Below, piece after piece: positions 577 to 30,362 of a stretch of 64,000 bases of DNA. How positions within the stretch are numbered: the first letter of the stretch is position 1; each line of letters opens with the position of its first letter. A program made the translations under genes and the position numbers. The notes under the pieces are model-generated. The model searched no databases, had not been told where the DNA came from, and saw nothing but the letters and a program-made list of their open reading frames with translations. The DNA comes from Lachnospiraceae bacterium (GTDB taxonomy: Bacteria > Bacillota > Clostridia > Lachnospirales > Lachnospiraceae), in assembly GCA_022769665.1 (NCBI GenBank), contig JALEIR010000042.1, positions 36,172 to 100,171 of the forward strand. Reading direction: 5' to 3'.

Positions 577-2400
577 TTATTTTAATATAATATAATCAGT
601 GGGCTCCTCCGGCTGATTACCTGCCGCAATATACTCTGCCCAGAGAGTTCTGGCATACTTTTCCGTTCCCAGAAACTGTTCTGCTCCGTCTTCGCCGAAT
701 GCTGCCGTGGCCAAGGCCCTGAAATTGTTGACATGGTCGGCAATTGTTAACGTATATCGTCTGTTTTCCTGCAAAGCCTCTCCGTTTACGGTGATACCCG
801 TCAGGACATAAGTCCCATCTTTCTTTTGTACCTCCATGGAAAACCCGCTGGATACCGGCAGTGTTTCATCCGAAAAAGGATTATTGCATGTATCATAGCC
901 CTCCACCGCAAGCCTGGCCAATTCAAATACCTCAGCGCCTGTAACCTCGCAGGTATACAAATGATTTCCTCCCGACTGCATGGCATACTCCAGCATCCTC
1001 TGTGAATAATCTGCGGCATACAGAGACCCTGTGCAAATGGAAGATGGCGCCAGAAGCAGCTCTGTGCCGCTGATTTTGCGCAGTGTATTGGCAATGACTG
1101 ATGTAGCCGGGCTTCCCCCGTCAGGCTGAAATACAACGGAATATCCGTTTTCCAATGTTGCAACCGTCTCCTCTTCCTTCCCGGCTAACTCTTTCAGAAG
1201 GGTATTCATGTTTTCATATGCACCCTCTGCATCCGTTTCTCCGGCCAGCAGCTTCTGCACAGATACTTTTGATGCCTGTAACAAACTGTCCGAAGTCAGC
1301 AAGGGATACATCCTGTTGGCAGCTATGACATCCTCCAGCTCGCTGAAGGTATCCGGAAAATCCACATCCACGCCACGGTTATAGGGAATCAGACAGGTAG
1401 GAGCCCCGTCAAGATATGCAGCGTATCCTTCCGGAGTGAACATGGCGTTCAGTACCTTTTCCGCCAGTTTCAATTTTTCCGGATTATTTTCCAAATTTCG
1501 GTTCAGAGCCACATGAAAAGCAGGCGTAAGCAAAATCCAGTTGTCTTCCTCGGTCTCTCCAAAGTAAGGCAGCAGTTTACATTTATGGTACTGAGAATAT
1601 GTCTGCAAATCCTCTGCCGTACCTCGTATCATGGCAACCTTCCCATCGGCAAAATCATTCAATGTCATGGTATAGCCTCTGGTAATTGCGTCCTCCGTAA
1701 GCCCTGTATCTTTCATAAAGGCTTCCAGCTTGTCAAATGCCCCTGTCCAAAGTTCCCTGTCCAGGTTATCTGTCGTTTCACTCTCGTAGTCCAGCCGCCA
1801 GGAAGTTCCCTCCAGACTGACCAATTCCGGAATGGAACAGCCTTCCAGTGTGTATAAACAGGTATAATCATATTTATAATCGCTCAGATAAGGCAGAATC
1901 CCTGCTTCTTTGAATTTTTCACAGGCTTCACGAAAGCCGGCATAATCTTCCGGCAATTTCACATTGTACTGTTCGAACAGCTCTACGTTTGCCACAAATC
2001 CGTTGACAACCCCTCCTCCGGGAAGCCAATATATCATACCGTCGCTATCCGTATAGTCATCCAAATAAGCCTTGTAAAATGTGGTCTCCGTTTTGCTCAA
2101 GTCCATCAGAGAGTTGTTCAGCTCCTGTACCTCCCGCACGGGCAGACATCCCACAATGATAATATCGGGAAGTTCACCGTTTTGCCTGCAGAATTCATAG
2201 TAAGCCACTTCACTTCTGCTTGCCACAAATTTGAAATCAACCTCCGGGACCGCCTCTGTCAGATACGGTGCAAAATCATTTAACATTTTTGTATCATATA
2301 AATATACCGTTATTTCATTATTCACAGTGCTTTTTTCTTTACTGCAGCCGGAAAGTGTAAACAGTGCACCGACAGCCAATATGAACAGTATCTTCCTCAT
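577..2400 (-). CDS. Lipoprotein: extracellular solute-binding-like N-terminus with 5'-nucleotidase C-terminal-like domain (paralog of 4967-6826)
   Basis: Lipobox LSGC; SBP-like sequence; C-terminal VIANTLRKISG..LPVSSGFSMEV..ITVNGEAL resembles the 5'-nucleotidase C domain. Confidence 0.75.
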   Translation of the reverse strand: MRKILFILAVGALFTLSGCSKEKSTVNNEITVYLYDTKMLNDFAPYLTEAVPEVDFKFVASRSEVAYYEFCRQNGELPDIIIVGCLPVREVQELNNSLMDLSKTETTFYKAYLDDYTDSDGMIYWLPGGGVVNGFVANVELFEQYNVKLPEDYAGFREACEKFKEAGILPYLSDYKYDYTCLYTLEGCSIPELVSLEGTSWRLDYESETTDNLDRELWTGAFDKLEAFMKDTGLTEDAITRGYTMTLNDFADGKVAMIRGTAEDLQTYSQYHKCKLLPYFGETEEDNWILLTPAFHVALNRNLENNPEKLKLAEKVLNAMFTPEGYAAYLDGAPTCLIPYNRGVDVDFPDTFSELEDVIAANRMYPLLTSDSLLQASKVSVQKLLAGETDAEGAYENMNTLLKELAGKEEETVATLENGYSVVFQPDGGSPATSVIANTLRKISGTELLLAPSSICTGSLYAADYSQRMLEYAMQSGGNHLYTCEVTGAEVFELARLAVEGYDTCNNPFSDETLPVSSGFSMEVQKKDGTYVLTGITVNGEALQENRRYTLTIADHVNNFRALATAAFGEDGAEQFLGTEKYARTLWAEYIAAGNQPEEPTDYIILK

Positions 2401-2430
2401 GGTTCTATCCTCCCTAAAGCCTGCATGAAG

Positions 2431-4953
2431 CTATTTCCCAATCAGTTTTGCAACCGTGCTGCGCAGTTTCTCCACACCAATCGGTTTTGCAATATGTGCA
2501 TTCATGCCTGCCTCCATAGCCCTTCGCACATCTTCCTCAAAAGCATTCGCCGTCATGGCAACAATGGGAATCCGGGAAGCATCCGGATGCCCGCAGGAGC
2601 GAATTCGGCGGGCAGCCTCATAACCATCCATCACCGGCATCTGAATATCCATAAAGATTAAATCAAATTCTCCCGGCTTCGAATTGCAAAATGCTTCCAC
2701 TACTTCTTTTCCGTTTACTGTCAGTTTACATTCTGCCCCTTCCATATTGAGGAGTGCCTCCAGGATTTCAGCGTTAAGCACATTGTCCTCCGCTGCCAGG
2801 AAACGCAAGCCTTCCATGAAGCGCTCTTCCGCCACCCCAACATCCTTTTCCTCACTCTCCGAGCTCTCTTCCTGTTTTTTTTCAGGGACCTGCAGCAGCT
2901 CCAGGTTAACGGTGAAAGTACTGCCTTTTCCCGGTGTACTGTCAACCAGAATTGTACCTCCCATTAAGTCCACAATATTTTTCGTAATTGCCATGCCCAA
3001 ACCTGTTCCCTGAATCTCTCTGTTACTTTCAGTGTTCTCTCTGGAAAAAGGTTCAAATATGGTCTTCACATAATTCTCACTCATACCGCATCCGTTGTCC
3101 GCCACAACAAAACGCAGATGAATATGTCTGCGGATTGTGCTTTCCGTTCCCTCCACCTTCAGGAAGATGGTTCCTTCAGGCTGTGTGTACTTGACTGCGT
3201 TGGAAAGCAGATTCAAAAGAATCTGGCTTAGCCTGGTTCTGTCTCCCAGCAGCATCTTCGGAAGTTTTCCCTCTTTGCTTATCCGAAATGTCTGCCTCTT
3301 TGCCCCCGCCTGAGAGAGAACAATGGAACCGGTTTCCTCTAACAGCTCCTCCAAATCGAATTCCGCCACATGCAGGGTAGTCTGTCCGCTTTCAATCTTG
3401 CTCATATCCAGAATATCATTGATTAATCCCAGCAAATGTCGTCCGGAATAATCGATTTTTCTGGTATACTCCCTTGCCTTCTCCGGGAGCTCCACATTTC
3501 TCTCCAACAGTGTAGTAAAACCGATAATCGCATTCATAGGTGTCCTGATGTCATGAGATATGTTGGCAAGGAAATTGCTCTTTGCGGCATTGGCGCTTTT
3601 TGCCATCTCCAGTGCATTTTCCAGCGCCTGATTAGTCGCCTTTTCATCAGTTCGGTCGGATAAAACTACGATATATTTTTCGCTGTCACGAATCATGGTA
3701 CAAAACGCAGTTGCCTGAAACCACAGTGTCGCACCTGTTTTCCGATGAATGTACTCACGCTCCCATTCTTTTTTCTCTCCGGGTATCATCTTCGGCAGCT
3801 CATCCGCAATTCTGGGTGCATCTGAATCCCGCAACAACCCGCTCAAAACATTGATATCATCCCGAATCACTTCCTCCGGAATCCCGACAATCTTGTATAC
3901 ATTGGGACTGATATAGCTCACACGCAGGGTATCTGCGTCAATCATCAGGAAAATATCATCTACGTTACCGGAAAGCATACTGAACAATTCTTCCCGGTAC
4001 AGAATTTCCGTATCCTTTTCTTCCAGGCTTCGTCTGTTTTTTTGAATGACCAGCATCGTCAGCACGATAATAATTATCCCTGCAACGCCGGCAACCAGCA
4101 TCAATGACGCCGTCTGTAATTTGTTCATACTGGCATTTACCACACCGGTAGGGACAACCCCCAGCACCATCCAATCTTCAAACTCCACGGGTTCATAGAT
4201 CAAATAGTACTCGTCAAACTCCGTACGAAAGGATGTCGCTCCAAGGACACCATTCTGAAAATCCTGCCTGATTTTATCAATCCGGTCGTCACTCATATCC
4301 GATTTGCTTTCCAGCATGGCGATAAAGTTAAATATACTGTTTTCTCTGTTCTGGGCATTGTCCGCAAAAACCCGCCCGTCTCCATAGGCAATGTAGCTGT
4401 TGGATTTCCCGTTAAATGCCGATATTTCCAGGTTTGCCATAAGGTCCTTATTGTCAAAACTGATTGCGACTGCTTCATAGGAGAAACCCCTGAAGATTCC
4501 CTGTTCCGCCGGCACGGCAAAAATAATCAGTTCAGGAGACCCAAACAAAACCGCATTTACCACAACCGGCTGTCTTTCCACAATCAGCTTTGTAAGCTGC
4601 CGTTTCATATCCAGATATCCTTTATCTCCGTCAGGAGTCATATAAGCTCCGTCCTTGGAAATAAAGTAAAACTCTGTAAAACCCTCCTTTTCCTGCACTT
4701 CCCTGATAAAGCTTTCCACCAGGGCATCATCCCCCGCATCCCGAAGATATGGAACGCATTCCTCCATATTCTTCCAGTTTCTCTCTACCATACTGTGCAA
4801 TGAACGGTTTGCCTGACTGTATATTTCCAACAGATGGCTGGTACTCTCCTCATAAATCGCTTTGGATACAAAACGGTAATAACCGACGCCTGCCGTTGCA
4901 ACTATCCCAAATACAAAAATGACTGATATGATATGAATAAATCTTTTTCGCAT
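2431..4953 (-). CDS. Hybrid sensor histidine kinase/response regulator (extracytoplasmic sensor, PAS, HisKA, HATPase, REC)
   Basis: [22 protein letters not shown]-box; [35 protein letters not shown] receiver; two TM segments. Confidence 0.93.
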
Positions 4954-4966
4954 AATCGCCGCCCTC

Positions 4967-6826
4967 TCAACGGATTGTTACATACTCCGTGGGCGCTTCC
5001 GGCTGCCCACCCTCCGCCAGTATCTCCTGAAAATACTCTATGGCGCTTCCTTCCATAGGCTCAAGCTTTTCCTTTATTTCTCCGGGCATAGGGCAATTCC
5101 GGAAAAATGCAGCTTCTATTGCATTGTCATTTCCCAGCATATTAACCCGAAAAAGCGCATTATCCTCAATTTCTTTACCGTTTATCGTCACTTCTTCCAA
5201 CGTGTAGGTTCCGTCTTGGTTGTCCTTTATTTTATATTCCATACCACTGGTCACAGGAATCTGATTCAGGTGGCATATCGGATTGCTGCCGTCCTCCTTC
5301 ACATTGACCAGCCAATCCATCACCTCCCTTATTTGTGCTCCTGTCAACTCAGCCTGCTTTAATGCAACACGGTTATGAATCAGCCATTTCATCTGCTCCT
5401 GCGTATATTCTCCCTCATAAATGGAAGAGGTGATAATTGTGGTGTATCCGATCAGCACATCTGCTCCTGTTGCCTTCCGCAAAGTATTGGCTACTGCCGA
5501 AACCGCTTTACTGCCATGTTCCGTAAAGGTATAATCATATCCTGTCTCCATATAGCAAACCGCTTCTCCCGCAGTTTCTTCACCGGGCATAGAAAGCTGT
5601 CTGTCAAAGTCTTCGTAAGCCTCCCTTGCGTCATACACCCCTCTTATCATATTTTGAACCACGTTTTGGGATATGGAAAAAAACTCTGTTGACGCCAGTC
5701 TTTGATACATATGATTCTGTTCCAGACAACGCTCTGCGCGAAGCAAACTTTTATCCGGTTCAAAGTTCACTGTCTTACTATAGGTAAGCACAGCATTGCC
5801 GGATGCGGCTCTGCGCTGCCCTTCCTCACTGAACATCGCCTCCAACACTTTTATGACATTTTCTTTCTTGACGGTATCCTGTTCCACATCATTGTTTACG
5901 GCAACCTGGAAAACAGGATAGGTCAGAAGCCAATTATCATTCTCGGTTTCTCCAAAATAAGGCAGCATGGTTGTATTGATTCCGTTTTCCGTTTGCAGGA
6001 CAATACAATCACTGACTGTTCCCCGAAACATCGCAAGCCTTCCGTCAACAAATAAGGCTTTTATATCATTAAACGTTCTATTCATATCCTCGGGTTTTAC
6101 ATAAGTATCCGCAAGGAAGCGTTCCAGCTTGTCAAAAACCACCGGCCATACATACTCATCCAGCCCCGTGGCACCGTCTACCGTCTCGCTCTCATACTGC
6201 ATACGCCAGTTTATTCCTTTCAGGCTCATTAATTCAGGAATAGCACACCCCTGCATTACCTCAAGGCAGCTGTAATCCGCCTGATAATCATTATAAAAGC
6301 CTCCAATTCCGTTTTCTTCAAATATTCTGCAGGCATTGGCGAAGTCAGCATAATTGTTGGGTAGCGGTACATCATAGGCCTCGAAGATATCCCGGTTGGC
6401 AATGATTCCGTCTACCTCCGCACACATGGGCAGCCACTGAATCGCTCCATCGGTATCACGATTATTTTCAATATAGGAGGTGTAAAATGTACCCACCAGC
6501 TCTGTCCTGCTTAAATCTAACAGATGATTCTTCAGCTGAGTGGCGTCATTTAACGAAAATCGACGGCAGGTTAGTATATCCGGCAAATCTCCCTTCTCCT
6601 CCAGGTAGCAATAAAAGTCCATGGAATTGTTGCCCACAATAAATTCAAAATCCAACTCCGGAAACTGTTTTTCCAACCACGGAGTTAACTCCTTCGTCAT
6701 AGAAAAATCCCATAAATACATGGTAATCTTATTGCTGTCATTCTCTTCCCGTACTTCCCCTTTACAGGCAGACAACCCGATGAACAGCGTCACCGCAACA
6801 AATACAAAAACAATCCTCTTTTTCAT
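4967..6826 (-). CDS. Lipoprotein: extracellular solute-binding-like plus 5'-nucleotidase C-like domain
   Basis: Lipobox LSAC; same layout as 577-2400 (e.g. [12 protein letters not shown] vs [27 protein letters not shown] vs [15 protein letters not shown]). Confidence 0.78.
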
Positions 6827-27767: not shown

Positions 27768-30362
27768 TTACACTCCACCGCTGCAATACTTTGCTTCAAA
27801 GTCCTCTCTCTTCATGGGACGGTCAAAATAAAAGCCCTGGATATACTTAACCTTCATATTTCGTACAACTCTGTACTGTGCCTCTTTTTCGATGCCTTCT
27901 ACACAAATGCTCACACCCAGTGTCTCCGCAAGTTCTGCCACCATCTTGACAAAAGATTGTGAATAACCATCCTCTGCCAGGTCTTTCACAAAGCTCTGAT
28001 CCACCTTAATCATATCAAGCGGAATCTCTCTGATATGATTCAGCGAAGAATATCCCGTTCCAAAATCATCCAATGCAATTTGAACCCCCAGCGCCTTGAT
28101 ACGGTTCAATATTTTCTTCATTCGTCCCATATCGTTGATAGCAAGGCTCTCTGTCACTTCAAGAGTAAGAGACCTAGGCCTGATTCCCGTTTCCGCAAGG
28201 GTTTTTTCAACCATTTCCACCACATCCGCCTGTAACAGTTGGACCACGGAAAGATTGACATTCACCTTGTAGTCATAACCGGCATCATTCCACATTTTAC
28301 AACGCAGGCAGGCTTCCTTTAAAATATGATTACCGATTGGATTAATCAACCCCAGATACTCTGCCAGAGGAATAAACTCCGATGGCGGTATAAAACCGAG
28401 GTTGGTACTGTTCCAGCGGACCAGCGCTTCCGCACCGGCACATTTCCCACCGTCCTGTACATTGATAATGGGCTGATAATACACTTCAAATTCGCTGCAT
28501 CCTTCTGCAGCGGCATCACGCATATTCTTTTCCATATCCAGGCGACGGCCGGAAGAAGTGTTGATTCCCACACTATAGCTGGCCACCCGGTTCTTTCCGC
28601 TCTTCTTGGCCTCATACATGGCTATATCGGCCTTCTTAATCAAATCCGCCACGGAATCGCCCATATTCGGAAAGGTTACAATTCCCATACTCATGGTACA
28701 GTAATAATCTGTATCCTTTAAGAACCAGGGCTTCGCAAAAATCTGCTTGATATCTTCTACAATTCTGTCAAATTCGGAATATTGCTTGGGCGGAATGACT
28801 ATGACGAATTCGTCACCTCCCATACGGTAACAGGTATCCTCAATCCCCTGAATTCTCTGTAATGAATGAGAAATTGCCTTTAAAAGCACATCCCCGTATT
28901 GATGCCCCAGTCCGTCGTTAATATGCTTAAAATCATCCAGATCAAGGTATAACAGCGCACCGATGGTATTTGTTTTCTTTGCATGATCTATCTGCCTTGC
29001 CAAATCCCGCTCACAGCACATTCTGTTATAAAGCCCTGTCAGGAAGTCCGTATATGCCTGTTGCTCAATCTTCCTTTGATACAGCTTCTTATCTGTGATG
29101 TCATACAGGGAATACAAAACAGCAGCCTTCCCGTCAACCCAGGAAATTTCCTTGGATATCAAATCATACCAACGGGCACACTCCTCATGGTGAACCTCAC
29201 AGATACCGTTCTCCTGACCGACCTCAACCCCGGTCTCCAGCAGGTCCACAAAAGTATTATCTTTCAGTTCTTCCGCAAAAGTATTCTGAAGCTTTCGGTT
29301 TGCAAACAGCTTCTCTCCTGTACCCTTATCCCGCACATAGATGGCACATCCCACATTGTCCAGGATTGCCTCCAATGCCTCGTAAGAACTGGCAATGGAA
29401 TTCTTCTGAATACGTCTGGTCAGAATACTCTGCAGCAGCTTTACCGCATCTGCCGTAAACTTAATTTCCGACATAACCCAGCTGTGCTTTTTTCTGCGGT
29501 GATTCAGTGACAAAACCAATCCTGTTCCATCTTCCCGATGCAGTATGGGAAAAACCATCATGGCTTTTGCACCGAAATTTCTGACTTCCTCGCTGAATTC
29601 ATCCTCCGGAGTGTCTCCGGAATAAATCAACGGCTTGTCCGTTACTAAAAATGAATCCATCTTCTGATTGCTTGTCTTGTCAAAGCGCGACACTATCCCC
29701 TGTGCCAGCCATTGCGACAAAACATCCATAATATTCTTTTCCGGATAAATTTGAAAAATCAACGCACTGTCAACTTCCAGATGCTGCGCCAAAATACTCA
29801 GCCACTTATCCATCACCGCTTCAATCCGGTCATCACTGTCCAACAGCTGCACAATTTTGGTGGTGGACTCTATGGTGTGAAGCGTACGACTCATCTCCTG
29901 CTCAGCGAAACGGCTTCTCCGGCTTTCTGCCTCAGCGCTGAAACATGTCATTTTATTACGGAAAAGTGTACTGCTGGTATTCCTCAGCAGATCCAGAATC
30001 TGAAGGAAATGAACCTCGTCTGTCCCTTCATCCTCAAGAGAAAGCACAATCCAGTACAGAAGCGACTCCCCGTCTATCCGCACCGCTACGGCTGCCACGC
30101 AGCCCTCTGAACCATTCAGCTTCTCAACCGCCTGTTCCTCCAGCGAGCCTTCCTCCACTCTCTCTAGTATGGCATTTATCTGTTCTGACGACAAATACTC
30201 CCTGTTCTTTTCCAACCGGTCAGCCGGACCGGACCAGTCGCTTATCCTCTGTTTCTCACTGTCCAGACAACGGGCGCATACTCCCGTAACCAGACAAAAT
30301 TCATCCTGCAGGCGTTGTAATTCCTCCCGGTTAATCAATTCCAAGGATACGTTTGTCTGCAC
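27768..30362 (-). CDS. GGDEF-EAL protein with GAF/PAS and PocR-like N-terminus
   Basis: RMGGDEFVIVI; EALVRWNS; DDFGTGYSSL; both catalytic motifs look intact. Confidence 0.93.
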   Translation of the reverse strand: MQTNVSLELINREELQRLQDEFCLVTGVCARCLDSEKQRISDWSGPADRLEKNREYLSSEQINAILERVEEGSLEEQAVEKLNGSEGCVAAVAVRIDGESLLYWIVLSLEDEGTDEVHFLQILDLLRNTSSTLFRNKMTCFSAEAESRRSRFAEQEMSRTLHTIESTTKIVQLLDSDDRIEAVMDKWLSILAQHLEVDSALIFQIYPEKNIMDVLSQWLAQGIVSRFDKTSNQKMDSFLVTDKPLIYSGDTPEDEFSEEVRNFGAKAMMVFPILHREDGTGLVLSLNHRRKKHSWVMSEIKFTADAVKLLQSILTRRIQKNSIASSYEALEAILDNVGCAIYVRDKGTGEKLFANRKLQNTFAEELKDNTFVDLLETGVEVGQENGICEVHHEECARWYDLISKEISWVDGKAAVLYSLYDITDKKLYQRKIEQQAYTDFLTGLYNRMCCERDLARQIDHAKKTNTIGALLYLDLDDFKHINDGLGHQYGDVLLKAISHSLQRIQGIEDTCYRMGGDEFVIVIPPKQYSEFDRIVEDIKQIFAKPWFLKDTDYYCTMSMGIVTFPNMGDSVADLIKKADIAMYEAKKSGKNRVASYSVGINTSSGRRLDMEKNMRDAAAEGCSEFEVYYQPIINVQDGGKCAGAEALVRWNSTNLGFIPPSEFIPLAEYLGLINPIGNHILKEACLRCKMWNDAGYDYKVNVNLSVVQLLQADVVEMVEKTLAETGIRPRSLTLEVTESLAINDMGRMKKILNRIKALGVQIALDDFGTGYSSLNHIREIPLDMIKVDQSFVKDLAEDGYSQSFVKMVAELAETLGVSICVEGIEKEAQYRVVRNMKVKYIQGFYFDRPMKREDFEAKYCSGGV

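Follow-up and report, generated by a model that had tools for sequence, protein, structure and literature searches.

Two paralogous solute-binding lipoproteins and a dCache hybrid histidine kinase probably form a sensory module without adjoining transporter genes in a Lachnospiraceae bacterium

The analyzed window, a 64,000-nucleotide stretch of DNA from a Lachnospiraceae bacterium, carries on its minus strand a three-gene cluster that encodes a solute-binding protein (SBP-A, positions 4967-6826), a hybrid histidine kinase (2431-4953) and a second binding protein (SBP-B, 577-2400). The genes are separated by 13 nt (A to kinase) and 30 nt (kinase to B), and each has a good Shine-Dalgarno sequence ahead of its ATG, in agreement with a sequence-only reading of this DNA that had described three tightly packed genes on one strand. 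A divergent gene for a HAD-family (phosphatase) protein lies upstream, and in the genome contig the 3' end of the cluster is followed by a 407 bp gap and then by genes for 3-methyladenine glycosylase, AddB and AddA; bounded in this way, the trio looks like a self-contained operon. Inspection of both flanks revealed no adjoining permease or ATPase gene, as had been stated earlier, and A and B are the only members of their family in the 2.69 Mb genome. Elsewhere in the window, positions 27768-30362 encode an 864-aa GGDEF domain protein.

SBP-A (619 aa) and SBP-B (607 aa) share the same architecture, and an alignment along their whole length shows 36% identity. Both are lipoproteins, with the lipobox cysteine at position 21 in A and 19 in B, and this lipid-bearing residue is invariant across the family alignment. 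In SBP-A, residues 30-415 (positions 5582-6739, minus strand) form a family-1 solute-binding fold, and residues 422-619 (positions 4970-5563) resemble the C-terminal domain of 5'-nucleotidases. AlphaFold modeled A with a mean pLDDT of 87 and a pTM of 0.85, and Foldseek matched the model to solved family-1 sugar-binding proteins, including 3quf, MsmE, RafE and MalE3, and judging from this fold the ligands of A and B are probably saccharide-like. With this fold, its lipobox and a match to the SBP_bac_1 profile that falls just under the Pfam cut-off, SBP-A has the features expected of the SBPs of ABC importers; SBP-B has no Pfam match to SBP_bac_1. The 5_nucleotid_C profile is matched by A at 35.4 bits, above the cut-off, and by B at 21.0 bits, just under it, which bears out the earlier description of a 5'-nucleotidase-like C-terminal segment in both proteins, and the fusion that was to be sought with HMMER and AlphaFold is indeed present. 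It is not an accident of annotation, because a divergent relative (L059) matches, within a single reading frame, family-1 SBPs with its N-terminal half and 5'-nucleotidases with its C-terminal half.

The kinase (840 aa) contains, in order, a transmembrane (TM) segment, a dCache domain, a second TM segment, a PAS domain (a marginal match), a HisKA domain (H467), a HATPase_c domain and a receiver (REC) domain (D769). Its extracytoplasmic sensor domain (positions 4129-4866, minus strand) was assigned from an AlphaFold model (pLDDT 84.6), for which Foldseek returned dCache kinases and chemoreceptors, and from a direct match to dCache_1, below the Pfam cut-off, in a kinase homologue (L032). The REC domain (positions 2452-2799; Response_reg, 83 bits) is terminal, and the kinase contains neither a DNA-binding or enzymatic output domain nor an HPt domain, so that the protein ends in a receiver without DNA-binding output, as read previously. 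Some relatives of the kinase have a second REC domain. This genome has few hybrid kinases.

A search with the SBP-A sequence alone returned no relatives and an alignment-based search was needed; among named genomes, this recovered 249 stretches with homologues, the majority from metagenome-assembled genomes (MAGs) of gut Clostridia. A sample of 299 genomes from the bacterial family contained 21 with homologues of A, and 101 genomes of the genus contained 17, weak matches included. We surveyed 106 SBP clusters, calling open reading frames mechanically on what are mostly MAG contigs and tallying a few near-identical loci (L167/L169) separately. A same-strand membrane kinase, usually with a REC domain, adjoins 84 of these clusters; 12 others stop at a contig end and 10 have no kinase neighbor, so the adjacency holds for 84 of the 94 non-truncated clusters (~90%). 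Three of the ten (L130, L164 and L184) have a contig end or a piece of a kinase close by, so that the real exceptions number about seven (L141, L182, L187, L193, L195 and the second copies in L037 and L142). Conserved adjacency of this kind is one mark of SBP-activated ('three-component') sensor kinases. At one exception (L193:1226-7603), the SBP gene is followed by genes for a polytopic GGDEF protein and a REC-GGDEF-EAL-REC-GGDEF protein, with no kinase between, and this SBP possibly feeds c-di-GMP enzymes directly.

The order A-kinase-B, considered as the standard arrangement, was rejected, as it is rare among the surveyed loci. The survey of gene order proposed with the sequence-only reading instead finds that a single SBP before the kinase, or a tandem pair before it, is commoner. 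About 15 loci have a clean SBP tandem ahead of one kinase (16 were listed, with L124 being a split gene). The SBP tree contains a kinase-proximal clade, which includes A, and a distal clade, and in the tandem loci the upstream gene is of the distal type and the downstream gene of the proximal type. SBP-B falls outside both main clades, a placement with weak support, and A-kinase-B is therefore a local version of a design with two SBPs that recurs elsewhere. We suggest, tentatively, that one dCache hybrid kinase could read two lipoproteins, either as separate signals or as agonist and antagonist, and that the two-clade pairing could be a recurring, unreported design of gut Clostridia, often with c-di-GMP output. 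At six other loci (L039-L043 and L045), a different SBP-kinase pair lies directly upstream of the SBP/5_nucleotid_C-kinase module, giving a sensory array; in this second pair (e.g. L040:5829-8793), a 271-aa SBP_bac_3 lipoprotein gene overlaps by 44 nt the gene for a 730-aa hybrid kinase.

Adjacency alone may mislead, as adjoining SBP and kinase genes are not always partners and two such pairs from P. aeruginosa failed binding tests (PMC11113362). This point favors an alternative in which the dCache domain binds its ligand directly and the lipoproteins are co-transcribed but stand outside signal perception, as does the fact that dCache domains commonly bind small ligands, as in the solved structures matched by Foldseek. 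We nevertheless judge this alternative unlikely, since the lipoproteins diverge with the sensor and not with the core of the same polypeptide. Across 75 SBP-kinase pairs, SBP distances correlate with sensor distances at r = 0.745 as compared to 0.411 for the kinase core; the partial correlation with the sensor given the core is 0.70, a value that 0 of 2000 permutations reach in a test that does not fully correct for shared descent, and the 66 closer pairs yield 0.51. In the 16 listed tandem loci, split L124 included, tracking of the sensor given the core is 0.79 for the proximal SBP and 0.58 for the distal SBP. When each domain is considered given the other, the partial value is 0.65 for the solute-binding domain and -0.46 for the 5_nucleotid_C domain, and the latter was rejected as the sensor-tracking part. 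Such co-divergence is the trace that a docking interface would be expected to leave, and it supports a physical partnership between SBP and sensor. A search with the sensor alone points in the same direction, as it identified seven strong homologues in genomes that lack the SBP-A/B family, five of which (L197-L201) have the kinase gene followed, with a 4-nt overlap, by a gene for a lipoprotein of 417-429 aa. The one scanned (L198) matches SBP_bac_1 and has no 5_nucleotid_C match; the link between sensor and binding protein is thus kept even when the type of binding protein changes. In another of the seven (L202), an HPt gene and a REC gene follow the kinase.

The family-1 fold is normally that of transport receptors, and some Firmicutes importers share a distant ATPase, so that A and B could in principle serve an importer as its substrate receptors, with the permease and ATPase genes lying elsewhere. 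We regard this as very unlikely because permeases are missing from nearly all homologous loci: binding-protein permeases are never conserved neighbors of the SBP genes, and of the 76 polytopic proteins encoded no more than 6 kb from them only 4 match BPD_transp_1, the three that were located being ~5 kb away (at L179 and L165). ABC proteins near other loci include isolated ATPases, an iron-type Peripla_BP_2 cluster and an ABC-2 type system accompanied by a MerR regulator. In the same genome, an ordinary SBP_bac_1 gene used as a positive control (L272) directly adjoins a permease gene. Distant energizing ATPases are known, but a conserved SBP family does not usually have its permease pair encoded at a distance. 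The sequence-only reading was to be abandoned if homologous loci had a conserved ABC permease or ATPase partner, or if lipoprotein and kinase did not co-occur across genomes, and the survey found neither situation. It is also highly improbable that A and B use the 5'-nucleotidase C-terminal domain to act as enzymes on the cell surface or as nucleotide-binding proteins. This idea draws on the 5_nucleotid_C match and on L059, which retains the canonical motifs and aligns to 5'-nucleotidases in that region; however, A and B lack a catalytic metallophosphatase domain, and alignment with L059 reveals that the base-binding NGGGIR and GDG-F/Y motifs are lost in both proteins and in most relatives. 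Without the catalytic domain and intact motifs of a 5'-nucleotidase, this C-terminal region is probably not enzymatic but a remnant of the fold that serves in structure or binding, and kinase pairing extends to the L198 relative, which has no such domain match.

The downstream target of the kinase, which the sequence-only reading had called unknown, can be narrowed in part. In this genome, no response regulator linked to the operon was found, and no REC-GGDEF protein was recognized, as no PF00990 and PF00072 matches share an open frame. With 29 GGDEF matches in 2.7 Mb, the genome has a large c-di-GMP repertoire for its size. Clues to the target come from the many related operons that include genes for HPt proteins and response regulators. 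Within the same gene run as the SBP, free HPt genes (~120 aa, E<1e-15 to the free HPt of this genome) occur in about 17 loci, genes for proteins that join a helix-turn-helix (HTH) domain to REC in about 14, REC-GGDEF-EAL(-REC-GGDEF) genes in 7 and a REC-HD-GYP gene in one (L036). At L161, L144, L160 and other loci, a 293-aa protein with a Cro/C1-type HTH followed by REC is encoded just before the SBP, the N-terminal position of its HTH being unusual for a response regulator. The seven HPt matches in this genome comprise one CheA-like protein, five domains fused to hybrid kinases and one free protein of 119 aa (G000:C28:6795-7154, L275), which is encoded directly downstream of a tRNA-methyltransferase-like gene, is unlinked to the kinase and is 38-45% identical to most operon-borne HPts. 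As the window kinase lacks its own HPt domain, this free HPt is by elimination the best candidate and most likely its partner.

Because the SBP-kinase pairing recurs in ~90% of related loci without transporter genes, the module is very probably a chemical sensor made of importer-like parts. The earlier reading as a sensory module and not an importer is supported by the kinase linkage, the absence of permeases and the co-divergence with the sensor; its wording that the lipoproteins deliver ligand to the kinase is better replaced, we infer, by regulation of the kinase through binding to its sensor. We think it likely that the operon encodes a two-receptor multi-component sensory system in which the lipoproteins set the kinase and phosphate passes via HPt to c-di-GMP or transcription. 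In this proposed system, A and B would reside on the outer face of the membrane, bind extracellular, probably saccharide-like ligands and dock on the dCache domain, and this contact is predicted to shift the kinase/phosphatase balance, with physical binding and the direction of control both inferred. Phosphate would then move from His467 to Asp769 within the kinase, from Asp769 to a free HPt, most likely the 119-aa protein, and finally to a response regulator that changes the c-di-GMP level or transcription. That SBPs stimulate receptors is generally accepted as a mechanism (PMC9602780), so the principle is already known; we found no description in the open-access literature of the family that joins an SBP to 5_nucleotid_C, of the two-SBP design or of the wiring to HPt and c-di-GMP. 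The analysis outlines a widespread gut-bacterial receptor family that is made of binding proteins of the transporter type, which one could readily take for parts of sugar importers. It also lays out a concrete, testable circuit in which SBP, dCache hybrid kinase and HPt lead to a regulator of the c-di-GMP or HTH-REC kind. Should the two lipoproteins both act on the one kinase, the result would be a sensor with two inputs, perhaps for diet or host glycans.

Functionally, the closest known systems are LuxP-LuxQ-LuxU and, in clostridia, CuaD-CuaS-CuaR and XylFII-LytS, although by the sequence evidence at hand the operon appears to be a member of none of them. By analogy, it most likely works like LuxP-LuxQ-LuxU, the autoinducer-2 sensing system of Vibrio, in which the periplasmic binding protein LuxP controls the hybrid kinase LuxQ, with its tandem PAS/Cache sensor, and phosphate passes to a free HPt. 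Both combine a binding protein with a hybrid kinase that has a Cache-type sensor, and the relay proposed here likewise includes a free HPt. However, LuxPQ operates in a diderm host with one LuxP per kinase and LuxO as output, whereas the operon has two paralogous lipoproteins and relatives with c-di-GMP or HTH-REC regulators. A and B also differ from LuxP in SBP fold class and carry the 5_nucleotid_C domain; LuxP is absent from the Foldseek top 50 of the SBP-A model, which match family-1 sugar SBPs instead, and the kinase reaches 282 bits with the LuxQ model, whose cut-off is 1200. The kinase also matches the TorS model, and TorT-TorS similarly joins a binding protein to a hybrid kinase, but TorS has its own HPt domain, a helical sensor and a single SBP, in contrast to the dCache sensor, the missing HPt and the two SBPs of the operon. 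XylFII-LytS, which perceives xylose, uses SBP and kinase families other than those found here. It shares with the proposed module a dedicated sensory SBP bound to the kinase sensor domain, and its solved complex contains two SBPs and two sensor domains (as cited in PMC10384115 and PMC9602780). In the CuaD-CuaS-CuaR system of Ruminiclostridium cellulolyticum, CuaD binds the extracellular domain of CuaS and senses cellobiose, and CuaS acts with a separate regulator, CuaR, and controls the ABC importer operon CuaABC (PMC10384115). Like A and B, CuaD is a clostridial SBP lipoprotein; it is not the transporter's own SBP and is encoded beside a two-component system (PMC10384115). The operon of the window differs in having a hybrid kinase, SBPs with an additional domain and no importer nearby.
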